Shown here one piece after another: positions 57,369-64,000 of a stretch of 64,000 bases of DNA. Where the stretch lies: assembly GCF_023015865.1 (NCBI RefSeq), contig NZ_JALKBC010000021.1, positions 1-64,000 of the forward strand, given 5' to 3'. The translations under genes were made by a program, and so were the position numbers. Below the pieces are notes generated by a model. The model did no database searches. It saw only the letters and a program-made list of their open reading frames with translations, and was not told the DNA's origin. The stretch's first letter is position 1, and each line of letters starts with the position of its first letter. This stretch comes from Arenibacter sp. F26102 (GTDB lineage: Bacteria; Bacteroidota; Bacteroidia; Flavobacteriales; Flavobacteriaceae).

Positions 57369-57573
57369 TTAGAAATTTATGTTTAAATTATCTTTCTGTC
57401 CATCTGATGATGTCATAAATAACTTAATTCTAAACACTTATAAAATTATACACTTGTATTGATGTAATGTAATGCATTAGATAAATTTATTAATGCAATC
57501 CATTGGAATGTAAAAGTGTAGTACGTTTGAGATTCTACTCTACGGTTATGTTCGGTTTAATAAATTACTAATA

Positions 57574-57954
57574 CTATTTATGGGAACATTCCTTACAGGT
57601 GCCGGTTAAAACACAATTCACATTTTCGACTTCGTATTCATCTGGAATTGAAAAATTAACTTTGACAGGCAAACACTCTATAGTATCACATTTAAGACAT
57701 CTAAAATGAAAATGATGACTAGGTTTTTGATTTTCTTCACATTTCACACATAATGCAAAATACTGTTTACCATCTTCTGCAACCACTCTATGCACAATAC
57801 CGTCGTCACAAAAACGGTTCAGAACACGATAGATGGTAGCCCGATTGATATCAATATCTATCTTCTGCTCAATGGCATCTTGACTCATCGCTTTACCTGT
57901 CTTTACCAAAACATCCAATACAGCTTCTTTGGTGGGTGTATTCCTTCTTTTCAT
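57574..57954 (-). CDS. Fur-family metalloregulator (Zur-like candidate)
   Basis: A 126-residue dimeric repressor. The winged helix reads AVLDVLVKTGKAMSQDAIEQ and INRATIYRVLNRFCDDGIVH. The metal part has HHFHFRCLKCDTIECLPV and ends GTCKECSH, giving two CxxC pairs for the structural zinc. Fur, Zur and PerR cannot be separated by motif alone; the absence of iron genes and presence of His-rich surface proteins downstream point to zinc. The promoter region facing the flavoprotein gene holds two palindromes that are likely operators, so the repressor probably controls itself and that operon. Confidence 0.88.
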   Translation of the reverse strand: MKRRNTPTKEAVLDVLVKTGKAMSQDAIEQKIDIDINRATIYRVLNRFCDDGIVHRVVAEDGKQYFALCVKCEENQKPSHHFHFRCLKCDTIECLPVKVNFSIPDEYEVENVNCVLTGTCKECSHK

Positions 57955-57982
57955 TAATTAACGCGATTTATTCGTAATTATT

Positions 57983-58003
57983 TATTGCGATTGTATTGCA
58001 ATA
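57983..58003. promoter_or_regulatory. Candidate Fur/Zur operator 1
   Basis: TATTGC at 57983-57988 and GCAATA at 57998-58003 are perfect inverted arms separated by 9 bp, in the 114-bp region between the divergent Fur-family and flavoprotein genes. AT-rich palindromes with TTGCAA-like arms suit Fur-family operators. Confidence 0.45.
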
Positions 58004-58036
58004 TTACAAAATAAAGATATATTTGCAATAAATACT

Positions 58037-58055
58037 AATGCGATGAATTCGCATT
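58037..58055. promoter_or_regulatory. Candidate Fur/Zur operator 2
   Basis: AATGCGATGAATTCGCATT has perfect 7-bp arms (AATGCGA and TCGCATT) around a 5-bp spacer. It ends 13 bp before the flavoprotein start codon, a position suited to repression. Confidence 0.5.
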
Positions 58056-58068
58056 TAAAATAATTATA

Positions 58069-59070
58069 ATGATTAGAAGAGCCGTAATTAAACAAGGAAG
58101 TCTCGCCGCTCTGTCTATTACTTTACTTAGTTCATTTACCAGTTTTACAAAAGCTAACGTTATGGAAGAAAATAAAACTTTTGAAGTGATTATTATTGGC
58201 GGGAGTTATGCGGGGCTTTCTGCAGCTATGGCCTTAGGTCGCTCTTTAAGAAATGTGCTGATAATCAATAGTGGAAAACCCTGTAATATCCAAACACCAC
58301 ATTCCCACAATTTCTTAACGCAAGATGGCAAGACACCAAAAGAAATTTCCACCTTAGCCAAACACCAGGTTGAACAATACAATACCGTTTCTTTTATAAA
58401 TGACCTAGCTATAAATGGGCAAAAAATACCTTTAGGTTTTGAAATTGAAAAAGAAAACGGCAAGACATTTACAGCAAAAAAAATAATCCTCGCAACCGGA
58501 GTAAAGGACATCATACCCAACATCAAAGGATTTTCAGAATGCTGGGGCATTTCTGTAATACATTGCCCTTATTGTCACGGTTATGAGCATAAAGCAGTAA
58601 ACACCGCCATTATGGCCAATGGTGAAAGGGCATTTCATCTTGCTCCCTTGGTGCAGAACCTTACCAATGATTTAACCATTTTAACCAATGGCAAGATGGA
58701 TTTCAATGAGCAACAATTAATAAAGCTCAAAACAAATAATATTGAGGTAAATAAAAAGGAAATATTGGAAGTTGAACACAAAAATGGTCATTTACAAAAA
58801 ATAGTTTTCAAGGACGGTAGCAAAGAAAACTTCCTTGCTGCCTATGCGGCGATTCCTTTTGAGCAGCATACCTCCATTCCGGTTGACCTAGGATGTGAAC
58901 TGACCGAGAATGGTCATATCAAAGTAGATTTCTTTCAGCAAACTAACGTTGATGGCATCTACGCCTGTGGAGATAATTCCAGCCCAATGCGTTCGGTAGC
59001 TTATGCCGTAGCCACCGGAAATATTGCAGGCGCCATGGTCAATAAAGAATTATCCCACGAAGAATTTTAA
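58069..59070 (+). CDS. Thioredoxin-reductase-like flavoprotein with an export-type N-terminus
   Basis: A 333-residue FAD/NAD(P)H disulfide oxidoreductase. VIIIGGSYAGLSAAMALGRS is the FAD-binding GxGxxG region, ILATGVKDIIPNI follows, and HCPYCHGYE is the redox-active CxxC. GIYACGDNSSPMRSVAYAVA closes the fold. The ATG at 58069 gives MIRRAVIKQGSLAALSITLL, a twin-arginine-like or Sec signal of about 30 residues, which is unusual for this enzyme class. An ATG at 58162 (MEENKTFEV) would give a normal cytoplasmic enzyme. With the Fur-family gene next to it and divergent palindromes between, it may act in redox or metal stress. Confidence 0.85.
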   Translation: MIRRAVIKQGSLAALSITLLSSFTSFTKANVMEENKTFEVIIIGGSYAGLSAAMALGRSLRNVLIINSGKPCNIQTPHSHNFLTQDGKTPKEISTLAKHQVEQYNTVSFINDLAINGQKIPLGFEIEKENGKTFTAKKIILATGVKDIIPNIKGFSECWGISVIHCPYCHGYEHKAVNTAIMANGERAFHLAPLVQNLTNDLTILTNGKMDFNEQQLIKLKTNNIEVNKKEILEVEHKNGHLQKIVFKDGSKENFLAAYAAIPFEQHTSIPVDLGCELTENGHIKVDFFQQTNVDGIYACGDNSSPMRSVAYAVATGNIAGAMVNKELSHEEF

Positions 59071-59082
59071 GCAAGATCAATA

Positions 59083-59217
59083 ATGGTTGAGGTTTTCACA
59101 ACAAATATTCCAAACAAAAGTCAGGTAGCTGACATTATAATAACGCTAGAGAATAATTCTTCAGGTTGGAGAATAACTTTTGATATGGAACGCAAAATAA
59201 TACATTACCCCCTGTGA
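59083..59217 (+). CDS. Small open frame, 44 residues, unknown (possibly degraded)
   Basis: ATG at 59083, stop TGA at 59215. It reads MVEVFTTNIPNKSQVADIII and continues with SSGWRITFDMERKIIHYPL. The first half looks like the short VEVF(K/T)TN proteins that are common in the Bacteroidota. Here the C-terminus diverges after ITFDME, perhaps because of a frameshift. It starts 13 bp after the flavoprotein, so it may be co-transcribed. Evidence is weak. Confidence 0.4.
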   Translation: MVEVFTTNIPNKSQVADIIITLENNSSGWRITFDMERKIIHYPL

Positions 59218-59250
59218 CCATAGTTTACTTAGAGTTGAAGGAGATAAACG

Positions 59251-59723
59251 ATGCAAAAAACAGAAAGCGATATGACAGAATTCAAGGAAGATAATTTTAT
59301 TCAAAAACAAGAAATGTGGAGTTTTAAACCGGCAAGATCCGCTGTGTTAACAAAATAATTCCTGTTTAAAAAAAATAAAAAACATTCCTATTCCAGATAT
59401 TGGTTATGGCCATCTGCCACAGTTCTATAAACAATATGCCTTTTGCTTCCCGAAAATTAGTAAAAAAGGAAAGTCAACAATTAATCCTTAACTGCTATGA
59501 ACAGCTTATTGAAAAGGGGTCTATGCTTTTTTCTGCTATAACAAATGAAGCCCCAAACTTTGGAATGGAAAAACGTATTGGCAAAGATTGTTATGAGCTA
59601 CACAAAGGCGCCAAAGTCTTTTATTACGACAAGCAATCTGTAAAAGAAGAATTTGGTGAGGTAGGTCTTTTTGAAATAATAGAGATCGATGAAAATCAAT
59701 CATTTTACTTCATCATGTGCTAG
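59251..59723 (+). pseudogene. Broken class I SAM-dependent methyltransferase gene
   Basis: Three damaged pieces of one gene lie in order. The 5' part starts at an ATG at 59251 behind a good GAAGGAGATAAACG and reads MQKTESDMTEFKEDNFIQKQ then EMWSFKPARSAVLTK, and stops at TAA 59356-59358. After a shift in the A-rich run near 59370 a second frame reads CLKKIKNIPIPDIGYGH, which contains the SAM-binding motif I (IPDIGYG). The third frame, from about 59400, reads VMAICHSSINNMPF through FGEVGLFEIIEIDEN to the TAG at 59721. The whole resembles a small methyltransferase of about 200 residues but is about 50 residues short after motif I. So a nonsense codon, a frameshift and an internal deletion are present. 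Confidence 0.7.
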
Positions 59724-59755
59724 AGAACAAAAATATTAAACAGAAACCAAAAAAT

Positions 59756-60142
59756 ATGAAAATTAAGAACAGTACATTAGATCTCGTAGCCCTTTCAAGC
59801 TCCCTTATTTGTGCGATACATTGCGCCTCTATTCCAATAATGCTTTCATCTACCACTTTTGGTAGTATACATTTTTTGGCTAACCCATTTATAGAAAGGA
59901 CATTTATTGGTCTTGGCTTTGTCTTTGTCTTGGCTTCATTGTGGCCTAGTTATCAAAAAATTCACCGAAAATTGAAACCCTTGAAAATTGCTGTTATGGG
60001 CTTTATATTTATTGGTTTGGGAAGGCTCCACTTTACAGAGTCATGGGAAATAGGTAATACTATAATGGGCACTTTGTTAGTATCCTTGGCCCACTACTAT
60101 AATTGGAAATTACTAGGATGCAGGGTACATCATAAACATTAA
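59756..60142 (+). CDS. MerC-domain membrane protein
   Basis: A 128-residue inner-membrane protein from the ATG at 59756 (MKIKNSTLDLVAL); a GTG 39 bp upstream is less likely. SSLICAIHCASIPIMLSSTT places Cys and His in the first helix in the MerC pattern, followed by three more helices. MerC proteins bind and move soft metal ions such as mercury, and free-standing copies are common in the Bacteroidota without mercury resistance genes. Location between the Fur-family gene and the TonB receptor suggests metal handling. Confidence 0.82.
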   Translation: MKIKNSTLDLVALSSSLICAIHCASIPIMLSSTTFGSIHFLANPFIERTFIGLGFVFVLASLWPSYQKIHRKLKPLKIAVMGFIFIGLGRLHFTESWEIGNTIMGTLLVSLAHYYNWKLLGCRVHHKH

Positions 60143-60199
60143 TTATTGTTAAGATTATTTTAACACCGTATTAACCTTATTTAGCTATGTTTGCATTTA

Positions 60200-60508
60200 A
60201 TGAGAAACAGTCGTCTAAAAAATAGTATCAGTATTCTGTTGCTTGCTCTTTTCATCTCAATGAAAATGGCAGGGCTTCATGTGCTTTCCCATACAGACGA
60301 TAAGGAGCATGCATTGCATTGTTATATTTGCGACAATGCTGTCTCCCATAACTTAAGCCCGGCAATTTCTGCGGATATTCCGGAATATGGTATTAAAAAC
60401 ACAGAGTCCATTCTCCAGATAGAGAAATCTGAAAATTACGCTTTTGTTGTTTCAAGTACTATTGCTCGTGACCAGCTCTTTTCACGACCTCCACCTTCTT
60501 TACTTTAA
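60200..60508 (+). CDS. Small His/Cys-rich exported or anchored protein
   Basis: A 102-residue protein from the ATG at 60200. The N-terminus has one hydrophobic segment (SISILLLALFISMKMAGLHV). It is followed by LSHTDDKEHALHCYICDNAV, with a CxxC and several His in 20 residues, and SHNLSP. The remainder is polar and ends FSRPPPSLL. The compact His/Cys cluster suggests metal binding at the periplasmic face. No family is recognised. TATGTTTG at 60186-60193 resembles the flavobacterial -7 box. Confidence 0.6.
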   Translation: MRNSRLKNSISILLLALFISMKMAGLHVLSHTDDKEHALHCYICDNAVSHNLSPAISADIPEYGIKNTESILQIEKSENYAFVVSSTIARDQLFSRPPPSLL

Positions 60509-60775
60509 GTTTCCCTTGCCCTTAATTCTTTCTGGAATTCTTGGATAACTCCAAGGCTCTATAGTTACACCTAATTCGTAATTGAGAATGGTATATAGAT
60601 TATTTCCAATAATCGCCATTTGAAGTTAAGGAACTGGCCATACCACCGCCTTTTGGCTATCGGCTTAAGACCAAGAAGGTACTAAAGTTACTATCAACTT
60701 CCAGGCAGAATTAAATGCATAGGTTTTGTAATGACCCCTCCATGGGGCAATTGTTCAAACTTATTGTAATAAATC

Positions 60776-63145
60776 ATGATCCATAAAATGCTGGGTGTAT
60801 GGCTATATTTTAGCCTATGCTCTATGGTGTTTGCACAGGATTCTTTCCAAATAGAAGGATCCGTTGTAAATGCCAACACCTTACAGCCTCTAGAAGGCGC
60901 CAATATTATTGGTAAGGGCCTTTTTTCAATTTCATCTTCTACTGGGACATTTACCATAAAAAATGTTGCTGAGGGTACCTACTCTTTGACTATATCGCAT
61001 ATTGGTTACTCGTCTGAAACGGTAACTCTTAAGGTAGGACCAAAAATGGACACCTTAAAGATCTACCTAAGGGAGTCTGTCACCGAGCTTCAGGATGTGG
61101 AAGTCAATGGTAAAACCAAAAAAAGGGAGACCCAAGAATTGGCTACGGTATCGCACACCGTCTCTAAAGATTTTCTTGATAAAAACAGGGAGAACAGTTT
61201 AATGCAGACCTTGAAGAATATTCCCGGGGTAAGCACCATTAATATTGGTTCAGGGCAGTCTAAACCAGTAATCAGGGGCTTAGGGTTCAATAGGGTAGTC
61301 GTAGTCCAGAACAGCATAAAACACGAGGCCCAACAGTGGGGCAATGACCATGGATTGGAAATTGACCAATACGGAGTTGAAACAGTAAAGATTATAAAGG
61401 GTCCCGCCTCATTGCAATATGGGTCCGACGCCATTGCTGGTGTGGTAGATATACAGACTTCGAAATTGCCAGTTAAAAATTCATTGAAGGGAGAGGTAAA
61501 CTTGTTAGGAGAAACCAATAATGATTTATTGGGGGTTTCGGCAGGCATACAAGGTCGTAAAAACAAGTGGTTTTATCGCGGGCGATTAACATATAGGGAT
61601 TATGGAGATTACAAAGTGCCAACGGACAAAATCAATTATGAGAATTACATTTTTGAACTGCATGACAATAACTTAAGGAATACGGCCGGGAAGGAAGCTG
61701 ATGCAAGCTTGGGGATCGGTTTTATTTCAGGCAACATAAAGTCTGAAACTAATTTTAGCAATGTAAATGCTAAAAATGGTTTTTTTGCCAATGCCCATGG
61801 CTTGGAGGTCAGAAGTTCCAGCATTGATTACGATAGTTCCAACAGGGATGTCGATTTACCCTATCATAAGGTAAACCATTTTAAAATTACGAACAATACC
61901 TCCGTAGGTATTGGAAACCATACCCTTCATTTGGATCTGGGGTATCAAAACAACCATAGGGAGGAACGTTCCGAACCTGTTCCGCACGGATATATGCCAA
62001 CGCCACCTGATAGCAAGGAACGGATATTTGATAAAAATACCTACACCTTAAATATTAAGGATTCCTTTAGCCCCAATCAAAGGCATGATGTTGCAGCAGG
62101 TGTAAATTTGGAATATCAAGACAATAACATAGGGGGATGGGGCTTTTTGATTCCTGCATATAACCGTTTCACCATTGGAGCTTTTGCCTATGACCAATTT
62201 GAGCTTCATCCAGATCTACATTTATTAGGTGGCTTACGTTATGACTATGGGGTGCTGGATAGCAAGTCCCATTATGACTGGTATCCCTCAACAGTGAACA
62301 ACAGTGATGGATCCACATCCTACATCTATCTGCAAAGGGCAAAAAACAAAACCTTAAATTTTGGTAATATCAGTGGCTCCCTTGGAATAAGTTACATACA
62401 TAAAAATACTACCTATAAAGTCAATTTAGGAAAGAGTTTTAGAATGCCTTTGGCCAACGAACTGGCCTCGGACGGCGTAAATTATCATATGTATCGGTAC
62501 GAAAGGGGAAATCTAGATCTTGACCCTGAATCATCTTATCAATTGGATCTGGATATTGATCATACTACTGCTGCGTTTAGTTTTGGAGCTAGTCCCTTTG
62601 TAAATATTTTTGAGAATTTTATCTACCTAAATCCCACTTCAAATTATTATGAAACCCTTCAAATTTACGAGTATACCCAGAGCAAGGTGTTTAGGGCCGG
62701 AGGAGAGATCAGGGCAAGTACCACTGTATTAAAAAATCTACAATTGGATGCTTCTGCAGAGTACGTTTATTCCAAGCAGACAAGTGGACCCAAGAAGGGT
62801 TTTACACTTCCGTTTTCACCCCCATTGTCGGGACTGTTCTCCGCCAGCTATCAATTCAAGGACTTTCTTTTTTTGTATGAACCAAAGGTAAAAGCGGACT
62901 ATAGAATTACGGCAGCACAAAATGAAATAGTACCTCCCGAAGAAGTAACGGAGGGGTATCAAGTGCTCAACATGTCCTTTACAGCTCAAATGAACCTTTT
63001 TAAAAGCGCCAAGCCTTTTGATGTGCGGGTAAAACTCAACAATGTGTTGAATACACACTTTTATGACCATACCAGTTTTTACCGGTTGATAGATGTGCCT
63101 GAACCCGGCAGAAACCTATCCATTTCATTGACAGTACCTTTTTAA
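60776..63145 (+). CDS. TonB-dependent outer-membrane receptor, candidate metal receptor
   Basis: A 789-residue outer-membrane receptor with a signal peptide (cleavage near SMVFAQ). Residues about 25-105 form a CarboxypepD_reg-like domain (SFQIEGSVVNANTLQPLEGA). The plug is at about 115-235 (LMQTLKNIPGVSTINIGSGQ, then VVVVQNSIKHEAQQWGNDHG, then GPASLQYGSDAIAGVVDI), and the 22-strand barrel ends with LSISLTVPF. The QWGNDHGLEID region with its Asp-His pair resembles the metal-binding plug loop of zinc receptors such as ZnuD, which is an inference. It is 267 bp behind the His/Cys-rich gene and 45 bp before a His-rich lipoprotein. Confidence 0.87.
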   Translation: MIHKMLGVWLYFSLCSMVFAQDSFQIEGSVVNANTLQPLEGANIIGKGLFSISSSTGTFTIKNVAEGTYSLTISHIGYSSETVTLKVGPKMDTLKIYLRESVTELQDVEVNGKTKKRETQELATVSHTVSKDFLDKNRENSLMQTLKNIPGVSTINIGSGQSKPVIRGLGFNRVVVVQNSIKHEAQQWGNDHGLEIDQYGVETVKIIKGPASLQYGSDAIAGVVDIQTSKLPVKNSLKGEVNLLGETNNDLLGVSAGIQGRKNKWFYRGRLTYRDYGDYKVPTDKINYENYIFELHDNNLRNTAGKEADASLGIGFISGNIKSETNFSNVNAKNGFFANAHGLEVRSSSIDYDSSNRDVDLPYHKVNHFKITNNTSVGIGNHTLHLDLGYQNNHREERSEPVPHGYMPTPPDSKERIFDKNTYTLNIKDSFSPNQRHDVAAGVNLEYQDNNIGGWGFLIPAYNRFTIGAFAYDQFELHPDLHLLGGLRYDYGVLDSKSHYDWYPSTVNNSDGSTSYIYLQRAKNKTLNFGNISGSLGISYIHKNTTYKVNLGKSFRMPLANELASDGVNYHMYRYERGNLDLDPESSYQLDLDIDHTTAAFSFGASPFVNIFENFIYLNPTSNYYETLQIYEYTQSKVFRAGGEIRASTTVLKNLQLDASAEYVYSKQTSGPKKGFTLPFSPPLSGLFSASYQFKDFLFLYEPKVKADYRITAAQNEIVPPEEVTEGYQVLNMSFTAQMNLFKSAKPFDVRVKLNNVLNTHFYDHTSFYRLIDVPEPGRNLSISLTVPF

Positions 63146-63190
63146 TAAATAGTAATCATAAATAAATTAATAACAATTAAAATCAAACAC

Positions 63191-63982
63191 ATGAAAACAA
63201 ACATTATGAAATCAAATTTTAAATTTTTGGCCATTGTTACTTTTTTAGGACTCGTTTTACACTCTTGTAGCAGTGACGACGACGGAGTTTCCGATGCATC
63301 GGCCCCAGTAATTACCAATTTCGAATTTGGGGAGGGAAGCGATCATTCCACGGAACCATACGCTTATAAGGGTTCCGACCTTCATTTGGAAGCGGAAATA
63401 AACGCGGAAGGAATAGTCAGCAGTATTTCCATAGACATACATGCCGATGATGTTCAGGTTGGAGAAGGCGAAGTTGAATGGGATTATGAAAATACCTACA
63501 CAAATGACTCCTACCTGGTAATTAATCCAACCTTTCATGAACATATCGATATTCCATCGAACATTCCGGCAGGTGAATATCATATTGTGTTGACGGTAAC
63601 CGATGAGTTGGGAAATAGCACAGAGATTGAGGGTCATCTGGAGATTTTGGATCCTATTGTGATAAGTGATTTTTCTATGGATACCACCGTCCAAAGAGGA
63701 AGTGATTTTCATGTTGAATTTATGATCGATGCCGTTAATGGCATACACAACATTACGGTAGATATCCATGCACATGACCTTACAATTGGCGAAGGAGAAG
63801 TAGAATGGGACTATGAAGAGATTTTTGAGGACGGATTCCATGAGGAGATCGAAGCGGAGTTCCATAAACATATCGATGTTCCCGTTACTGCTCCTGCCGG
63901 CGAGTATCACGTCCTATTTACAGTTGAAGATGAAGATGGAAACACAAAAGAGTATGAAACGCATATAGACGTTACCGCATAA
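63191..63982 (+). CDS. Tandem DUF4625-like His-rich lipoprotein
   Basis: A 263-residue lipoprotein with lipobox LVLHSC (Cys26) followed by an acidic tract. The mature part is two copies of one Ig-like domain, about residues 39-153 and 156-262, repeating exactly every 109 residues: GSDLHLE/GSDFHVE, IDIHADD/VDIHAHD, VGEGEVEWDYE/IGEGEVEWDYE, FHEHIDIP/FHKHIDVP, GEYHIVLTV/GEYHVLFTV. Six His positions align with the same offset (65/174, 84/193, 116/225, 118/227, 131/240, 149/258), and 17 His are present in total. This matches DUF4625, often encoded near TonB receptors. A surface metal-capture role feeding the receptor upstream is likely but unproven. Confidence 0.83.
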   Translation: MKTNIMKSNFKFLAIVTFLGLVLHSCSSDDDGVSDASAPVITNFEFGEGSDHSTEPYAYKGSDLHLEAEINAEGIVSSISIDIHADDVQVGEGEVEWDYENTYTNDSYLVINPTFHEHIDIPSNIPAGEYHIVLTVTDELGNSTEIEGHLEILDPIVISDFSMDTTVQRGSDFHVEFMIDAVNGIHNITVDIHAHDLTIGEGEVEWDYEEIFEDGFHEEIEAEFHKHIDVPVTAPAGEYHVLFTVEDEDGNTKEYETHIDVTA

Positions 63983-64000
63983 TAATATAATAACTATACC

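Follow-up and report, generated by a model that had tools for sequence, protein, structure and literature searches.

A candidate operon for zinc acquisition in Bacteroidota, with a Fur-type operator and a putative arrest peptide that senses metal

The window analysed here, 64,000 nt of the marine bacterium Arenibacter sp. F26102, contains at positions 57574 to 63982 a cluster of genes for a Fur-family repressor, a MerC protein, a small protein with a His/Cys cluster, a TonB-dependent receptor and a DUF4625 lipoprotein. The genes that the initial annotation had named for this locus were all present: their open reading frames (ORFs) were confirmed, and families were assigned by Pfam and NCBIfam profile searches. 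We regard it as moderately probable that these genes form a Bacteroidota operon for zinc acquisition, controlled both through a Fur-type operator and by a nascent chain that senses metal. Gene content, synteny, the conservation of motifs and of their spacing, operator sharing and RNA covariation were all observed and are described below. A narrower version is tentative: the small protein would belong to an RPPP class of arrest peptides and act as a zinc-sensing switch under a Zur operator, with its metal motif 51 residues from the stall site, opening a helix that contains its own stop codon.

The proposed succession of events would be as follows. When metal is plentiful, a Fur-family protein, probably Zur, would bind TWWTGCRAY-N3-RTYGCAWWA palindromes and keep the unit off; this shut-off is suggested by the conservation of the operator and by the genes that share it. 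When metal is scarce, the ribosome would stall at the RPPP motif, mostly two to three codons before the stop of the small ORF (hereafter, the leader). The stalled ribosome would keep open a helix, P1, whose 5' strand holds the leader's stop and whose 3' strand precedes the receptor start, and the receptor would then be made. By analogy with the leader CruR, the stall would end once the His/CxxC segment, on emerging, binds metal. The products would be a ZnuD-like receptor and as many as three Ig-like DUF4625 lipoproteins, probably anchored at the surface; with their conserved histidines, these lipoproteins may collect zinc, or a zinc carrier, and pass it to the receptor.

Comparisons were made over 80 named loci (handles beginning with L, as for the other stretches compared), the best 80 of 509 confirmed relatives, anchored on one of three DUF4625 types that we label DUFa (the two-domain lipoprotein of the window), DUFb (the anchor) and DUFc. 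Because many of these loci come from the same genera (Winogradskyella, Arenibacter), their counts are not counts of independent events. The denominators include one locus cut by the contig start (L063), one with no DUFb ORF (L102), one with no receptor ORF over threshold (L078), one with the receptor in pieces, scored as present (L113), and one whose RGPP leader escaped the profile (L118).

In the window the leader has a signal-like N terminus and conserved His and Cys residues. Its CxxC motif (codons 60320-60331) is followed by 51 residues, RPPP (codons 60485-60496), three further residues and the stop. The CxxC was present in all nine leaders aligned and in 78/78 leaders of the 80 loci; RPPP was found in 77 of the 78, with LPPP in one, and the motif lay two to three residues ahead of the stop in 73. 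The distance from CxxC to RPPP was 51 residues in 74 leaders, 52 in 3 and 50 in 1, although the residues in between vary (the top residue averages 45% over 46 positions after CxxC in 74 sequences). Across the nine-leader alignment, only L18, H30, C44, C47, D48, S98, R99, P101 and P102 were without exception. Among the 12 commonest forms the Arg codon was AGA, AGG, CGA, CGC, CGG or CGT and Pro was written by varied CCN codons, which argues for selection on the peptide itself.

A C-terminal motif of this kind is rare among small ORFs of the loci: R[APG]PP at most nine residues from the end was found in 76 leaders and in two others out of 1054 ORFs of 80-150 amino acids (aa). One of these two precedes a DUF4625-linked receptor (L118), the other another TonB-receptor-like ORF (L062). 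At seven of the eight more distant receptors listed at an E value of 1e-100 or better (including L152, a paralogue in the window's genome), an upstream small ORF ended in RGPP. Fourteen R[A/G]PP leaders were read; 11 of them contain CxxC, with a spacing of 43-47 residues in all 11, and those of L021-L024 carry RAPP at a spacing of 44-45. The initial annotation had the small protein help in metal handling, which is probably wrong, as its CxxC-51-RPPP pattern bears the marks of a regulatory leader; by likeness to known leaders, it is a putative arrest peptide that would sense metal and represent a new type of stall, placed before a zinc-type receptor. At a separate locus (L134 1369-3266), three ORFs stand in the order leader (RAPP, with CxxC), lipoprotein-like protein and a protein that starts like a TonB receptor.

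The interval from leader stop to receptor start has a median of 214 nt (77 leaders). Covariation was assessed on 54 of 75 loci (59 retained by receptor score, near-identical ones then dropped), and each helix was compared with permuted and slid versions of itself. Hairpin P3 was paired in 206 of 308 cells (67%, versus 36-54% for slid versions) and showed 52 two-sided changes (28.9 when permuted, 17-34 when slid). The P2 consensus, CCTATACAT/ATGTATAGG, was paired in 331/460 cells (72%; slid 27-57%), with 34 two-sided changes (permuted mean 19.5, slid 26-50). In 500 permutations, neither the pairing nor the two-sided changes observed for P2 and for P3 were attained once. P1 (ACTATAA/TTATAGT) was paired in 273 of 369 cells (74%; slid 33-66%). 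Since related sequences inflate such counts, we rate the evidence for P3 as good, that for P2 as fair and that for P1 as weak. When 12 intergenic regions were folded singly, z-scores ranged from -3.5 to -0.2 (mean -1.8, from a crude shuffle of 15). An excess of C over G surrounds the RPPP codons (just before them in 69/75 loci, just after in 66/75), and a C>G bubble like the rut site of CruR was considered; as the excess extends farther upstream within the leader (68/75; mid-intergenic region, 35/75), it says little about Rho.

The proposal that DUF4625, Fur and TonB receptors go together was checked in the neighbourhoods: the receptor was found at 77 of the 80 DUF4625 loci and Fur at 39. The leader was present at 77, DUFa at 76, DUFb at 79, MerC at 29, CobW at 12, FolE at 11 and DUFc at 9. 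For the 67 loci covered over at least 20 kb, at least one of Fur, MerC, FolE and CobW occurred in 40, and at least two in 27. The fullest locus, that of Zobellia uliginosa (L070), combines Fur, MerC, FolE, the leader, the receptor and three DUF4625 lipoproteins with two CobW GTPases, an ABC unit and an alkaline phosphatase. Pfam confirmed the labels at L015 (two CobW, MerC, Fur, FolE as GTP cyclohydrolase I, and alkaline phosphatase) and at L024 (MerC and FolE); the latter lies in a genome of another class by its kinship label (G191), where Fur-MerC-FolE adjoins the DUF4625 operon. COG0523 (CobW-like) GTPases are reported as common members of Zur regulons (PMC6103462). Taken together with the ZnuD-like receptor, the CobW and FolE neighbours and the operator shared in some relatives support zinc acquisition.

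Beyond these loci, PF15418 (DUF4625) was detected in 13/198 sampled Bacteroidota genomes, 10 of them over the cut-off. Twelve stretches from nine such genomes were examined, the window's own and three sub-cut-off matches aside, and in eight of them (seven genomes) a receptor of the window's type adjoins DUF4625. In Polaribacter sp. BM10 (L078) the leader and DUFb are kept with no receptor ORF over threshold. Separately, L021 (6110-7330), L022 and L023 carry on the other side of the receptor a 406-407-aa lipoprotein-like protein with a HDDHDHDHD-type stretch.

The lipoprotein of the window belongs to DUF4625 (186.6 bits over two stretches, against a PF15418 cut-off of 27). Its two domains had been said to align in a 109-residue register with six conserved His, and shift alignment and shuffling bear this out. 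At a shift of 109, 51 of 130 residues are identical (4-16 at other shifts in the range 95-124), and six His pairs coincide (65/174, 84/193, 116/225, 118/227, 131/240 and 149/258), a number reached by 0/5000 shuffles of domain 2 (best of 20 shifts). In an alignment of 54 sequences (the window's and 53 of 77 references of 240-285 aa, most low-scoring copies left out), H65, H116, H118 and H131 of domain 1 and H174, H193, H217, H225, H227 and H240 of domain 2 were invariant. When all 80 DUFa-type ORFs and the window's were recounted as 70 high-scoring and 11 low-scoring, the His set was kept in 69 of the 70, the remaining row having gaps there. DUFb, aligned over 44 sequences (41 of 72 references with L021, L022 and L024), kept C47, H76, H82, H84, C91 and H136 (L041 numbering) in 44/44.

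AlphaFold2 models of the window's DUFa and of the L041 DUFb were good (mean pLDDT 88.5 and 89.0). After the lipid Cys, the window's DUFa reads C-SSDDDG, a pattern of a polar residue followed by acidic ones that agrees with a lipoprotein export signal (LES) and resembles the reported surface export signals SDDDD and SDDFE (PMC5080379). At least two acidic residues follow the Cys in 76 of 78 DUFa and 65 of 77 DUFb sequences (those with a Cys in residues 13-42). The conserved histidines, the Ig-like models and the export-like N terminus make the collection of zinc by DUFa at the surface plausible, and hand-over to the receptor may follow, as in known lipoprotein-receptor pairs. It is possible, but on the whole doubtful, that these lipoproteins serve instead as a scaffold, an adhesin or a receptor lid, or that they bind a zinc-carrying ligand and not zinc itself. 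Their models match generic Ig/FnIII-like structures, the top match of DUFa being the biofilm scaffold RbmA (E 1.3e-8, TM 0.25), and no close metalloprotein twin was seen among the 50 fold matches listed per model; most of the His set is also lost in low-scoring DUFa-type copies. A pure scaffold, however, fails to explain the His and Cys set of DUFb or the DUFa histidines that recur at +109.

The Fur-family protein was aligned over 33 sequences (the window's, that of L024 and 31 of the 41 found in the 80 loci). H55, H81, H83, C86, C89, C94, C120 and C123 were invariant, which includes the Cys4 structural zinc site of Zur type (C86, C89, C120, C123); as this site is common to other Fur-family members, it is not specific for Zur. 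The Fur proteins next to these operons fall into two groups, which share about 68-88% or 27-35% identity with the window's protein, itself a member of one of them. The palindromes that had been noticed in the divergent promoter of the Fur and flavoprotein genes are indeed there. From promoter palindromes the pattern TWWTGCRAYNNNRTYGCAWWA was condensed and then counted in those same promoters, with the reversed pattern and a scan of the whole 5.44-Mb genome as controls. Over the 80 loci (1.54 Mb), 79 sites were found with at most one mismatch, versus 0 for the reversed pattern, and 127 versus 8 with at most two. A site with at most one mismatch lies upstream of 33/41 Fur genes (reversed pattern, 0), and one within 200 nt upstream of 16/78 leader genes. 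In L099 and L105, the MerC-FolE unit and the leader-receptor unit are both preceded by the same operator.

In the window's genome the site at 57983-58003 is the sole perfect match, and the only one-mismatch site elsewhere (C44:6983) falls within an ORF. At two mismatches 39 matches were counted, against 16 for the backward control, so that the second palindrome alone proves little. That the sole perfect operator is the Fur/flavoprotein promoter, together with profile scores that are similar for Fur, Zur and PerR, would fit a repressor acting on itself and the flavoprotein alone, as a thiol or peroxide unit with the receptor near by chance. We consider this unlikely, since leader-receptor units of relatives carry the operator, including those of L054, L083 and L105, three loci with no Fur gene found, and since the Fur gene directly faces MerC or the leader in many relatives. 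The operator in relatives also led us to rank lower the possibility that the protein, on account of the flavoprotein, is a PerR. Two other elements were noted immediately upstream of the leader: a perfect inverted repeat, TGTTAAGATTATTTTAACA (60147-60165), which differs from the operator found elsewhere and whose core also precedes the leader in the Arenibacter relatives L041-L043, and a TAnnTTTG-like element (60186-60193). Elsewhere in the genome (L154 5726-8183, G000:C55) another Fur-family gene with His/Cys motifs stands directly before a His-rich protein that, judged by eye, resembles a P-type metal ATPase and may represent the efflux arm of metal control.

For the receptor, the best PDB sequence match was ZnuD (8.6e-23; next best 2.4e-9), and the best NCBIfam model was also ZnuD (NF038289, 1.3e-43), at 149.7 bits against a membership cut-off of 950. 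The zinc ligands of ZnuD include Asp99 and His100 of the plug, as well as Glu340 and His499 (PMC4557270). With an offset of 14 in the ZnuD chain numbering, as we infer it, Asp99-His100 aligns with D191-H192 (61346-61351) in the plug loop QWGNDHG, in both the single-sequence and the profile alignment. D191 and H192, as well as H341, H368, H404 and H765, were kept in all 81 receptors aligned (the window's, 76 from the 80 loci with ORFs over 760 aa, and L021-L024). A second ZnuD-like receptor of the same genome (L153 7715-10672, G000:C55) has the plug QFGAEHG and its own upstream small ORF, which ends in RRGPP and has no CxxC.

The zinc reading of the initial annotation thus appears right in outline and is partly supported, with copper as an alternative. 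Here the leader would be a CruR relative that senses Cu(I) through its CxxC, and the receptor a copper importer. Copper is the metal to which the studied leaders CruR and CutF respond, both of which combine CxxC or CxxxC with a C-terminal Pro motif (PMC9426467, PMC9973294), and OprC, a copper protein, also appears among the PDB matches of the receptor (6e-9); the copper site described for CrtA consists of Tyr130, Trp265, Glu337, Gln356, His358 and Arg395 (PMC12914433). We nevertheless hold copper uptake to be improbable, given the far better match to ZnuD, the alignment of its Asp-His ligands and the CobW GTPases found in these clusters. Least likely of all, despite its signal-like N terminus and conserved His and Cys, is that the CxxC...RPPP protein is no leader but a chaperone or metal-binding protein of the ordinary exported kind, with a C terminus that serves the protein, as neither the near-constant spacing across varying residues nor the position of the motif next to the stop favours this, nor do the RGPP-ending ORFs at distant receptors of the class. 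Leaders with RAPP or RGPP ahead of TonB receptors form a recognised class (PMC12992588).

Several findings weigh against doubly controlled zinc acquisition. CruR, the nearest leader of its kind with a proven function, senses copper, and its Pfam family, DUF2946 (PF11162), matched none of the eight leaders scanned (the window's and those of seven relatives). That family was detected in 5/148 Bacteroidota genomes, two over the cut-off; one of these two, L131, is a RGPP leader before a receptor with the plug QWGMEHAPEID. A Fur gene accompanies just the 39 loci counted above, 62 of the 78 leaders are without an operator within 200 nt at one mismatch, and comparison of the Fur profile with structures of Fur, Zur and PerR gave similar scores for all three (10 sequences scored 31.5-37.6 bits; Fur came first, with Zur 4mtd and 2o03 close). 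The window genome's perfect operator is confined to the Fur/flavoprotein gap, the repeat upstream of the leader being different, so that control of leader and receptor in this genome would go through read-through or another regulator. In the receptor, the position of ZnuD His499 lands two residues from H571 (kept in 79/81), and the Glu340 region failed to align. MerC counts as a zinc-regulon gene on our assumption. FolE is here of the GTP cyclohydrolase I family (PF01227), and the type named in PMC6103462 is folE2.

The lipoproteins and the RNA add further points to this side. Low-scoring DUFa-type ORFs keep H65, H116 and H118 alone (10/11 each), which designates these three as the core; they mostly lose H217, and H131, H193 and H240 are found in 2/11. 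DUF4625 matches over the cut-off stand without a neighbouring receptor at L017 and L020, which are lone DUFc genes, and at L025 and L026, which are low-scoring. P2 is imperfect in the window, and its two-sided changes are no more numerous than those of its slid versions. P1 is weak: permuted pairing was 72% versus 74%, and 12 of 500 permutations reached the observed value, because this helix varies little. In a duplex-swap test, pairing of leader end with receptor start gave -20.3 kcal/mol for own and -16.2 for swapped partners; as a mid-intergenic control also differed (-20.6 versus -18.0 kcal/mol), the result was not counted.

Features of the locus are collected in Table 1. The end of the window cuts the operon, which amends its first description: two more DUF4625 lipoproteins follow on the contig.

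Table 1. Features of the locus (window positions unless marked as contig positions)
Feature	Position	Strand	Evidence or remark
Fur-family repressor, possibly Zur, 126 aa	57574-57954	-	PF01475 1.2e-11
Fur-type operator TATTGCGATTGTATTGCAATA	57983-58003	.	perfect TWWTGCRAYNNNRTYGCAWWA match
Second operator-like palindrome TAATGCGATGAATTCGCATTT	58036-58056	.	2 mismatches
Thioredoxin-reductase-like flavoprotein	58069-59070	+	PF07992 (Pyr_redox_2) 1.2e-28; TIGR01292 1.5e-27, under cut-off
Small protein, no family match	59400-59723	+	ORF only (Pfam and NCBIfam searched)
MerC-domain membrane protein	59756-60142	+	PF03203 3.5e-18
Putative leader peptide ('His/Cys-cluster small protein')	60191-60508	+	likely ATG 60200
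RNA helix P1, 5' strand, contains leader's stop codon	60502-60508	+	
RNA helix P2, 5' strand, imperfect in window	60514-60521	+	covariation, 54 loci
RNA helix P2, 3' strand	60715-60723	+	
RNA hairpin P3, CCCC/GGGG here, other paired bases in relatives	60735-60747	+	covariation, 54 loci
RNA helix P1, 3' strand, 8 nt before receptor start codon	60762-60767	+	
ZnuD-like TonB-dependent receptor	60776-63145	+	CarbopepD_reg_2, Plug and barrel; best PDB match ZnuD
Two-domain DUF4625 lipoprotein (DUFa)	63191-63982	+	PF15418 2.9e-55, two stretches
One-domain DUF4625 lipoprotein, 166 aa	contig 64025-64525		downstream of DUFa, outside window
Third DUF4625 lipoprotein, ~315 aa (DUF4625 domain, then C-terminal part)	contig 64543-65490		outside window

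Among the other genes, MerC scored 66.6 bits, over the PF03203 cut-off of 27.6. The flavoprotein is more closely described than before as resembling thioredoxin reductase, at a score below the cut-off of that model; its family is present at 13 of the 80 loci, in 12 of them with a Fur gene. Its N terminus (RRAVIKQGS) looks like a Tat export signal, and an exported thioredoxin-reductase-like protein adjoining a Fur gene is an odd combination. The ATPase of an FtsX-unit ABC system was found at 19/80 loci and the permease at 16/80, and an ORF group with the working label DUF3299 had no Pfam match. An Rfam scan of 57500-64000 returned a single match, far under the gathering score, on the opposite strand within the receptor. 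Among the matches listed, the closest named relative was Arenibacter palladensis, with 94% identity in the second lipoprotein.

To our knowledge, no zinc-responsive arrest peptide was known earlier. If correct, the proposed system would provide the first one and a first function for DUF4625, a word that was not found in the literature searched. It would make zinc scavenging by marine Flavobacteriia directly testable, and metal-sensing arrest peptides that differ in stall motif and ruler length would bear on how the spacing is matched to the stall sequence. Among the literature matches listed, with most subscription journals outside the search, we found no paper on RPPP leaders with a 51-residue ruler and none on an outer-membrane zinc system of this kind in Bacteroidota. 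The lipoprotein-receptor relay had been presented as new; its layout is known in Bacteroidota from BtuG-BtuB, and the zinc use would be new. The novelty lies less in this relay, a known design, than in the leader.

Several known systems can be compared with this one. The receptor resembles ZnuD of Neisseria meningitidis (4RDR; PMC4557270) as a TonB-dependent receptor whose plug Asp-His zinc ligands align, but has in addition an N-terminal carboxypeptidase-like domain, partner lipoproteins and a leader, and it scores well below the NCBIfam cut-off for that family. The BtuB-BtuG vitamin B12 system of gut Bacteroides (PMC10404256) is likewise a Bacteroidota receptor encoded with a surface lipoprotein; its ligand differs, and the pair described here is known from genes and monomer models. 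The Zur regulon of Caulobacter with znuK and znuL (PMC4176598) also joins a Fur-family regulator to zinc-responsive receptors, whereas operator sequence, phylum and gene set differ.

The closest parallel is CruR-bfrG/crtA. CruR of Bordetella pertussis (DUF2946) consists of a CxxC, 45 residues and RAPP, and heads a receptor operon repressed by copper; its CxxC is required for the copper response and its RAPP for receptor expression (PMC9426467), and arrest at RAPP was later demonstrated in vitro (PMC12992588). Both systems have a short exported leader with CxxC, a C-terminal Arg-x-Pro-Pro and near-fixed spacing, at the head of a TonB-dependent receptor operon with a long intergenic region. They differ in the metal, copper for CruR and probably zinc here; in motif and ruler, RAPP with 45 residues (tolerance 1-2) there and RPPP with 51 here; and in the downstream signal, Rho-dependent termination being shown there and paired RNA seen here. 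The CruR operon has no DUF4625 lipoproteins, and the eight leaders scanned here had no DUF2946 match. RAPP/RGPP leaders upstream of TonB receptors are reported as universal in Gram-negative bacteria (PMC12992588), and the leader class is thus a known one that embodies the same idea. As the search in that study covered RAPP and RGPP and 'RPPP' is absent from its main text, the RPPP group would probably have gone unnoticed there. Beyond the known class, the present analysis adds the RPPP group with its 51-residue ruler, as well as the zinc setting and the pairing in the RNA.

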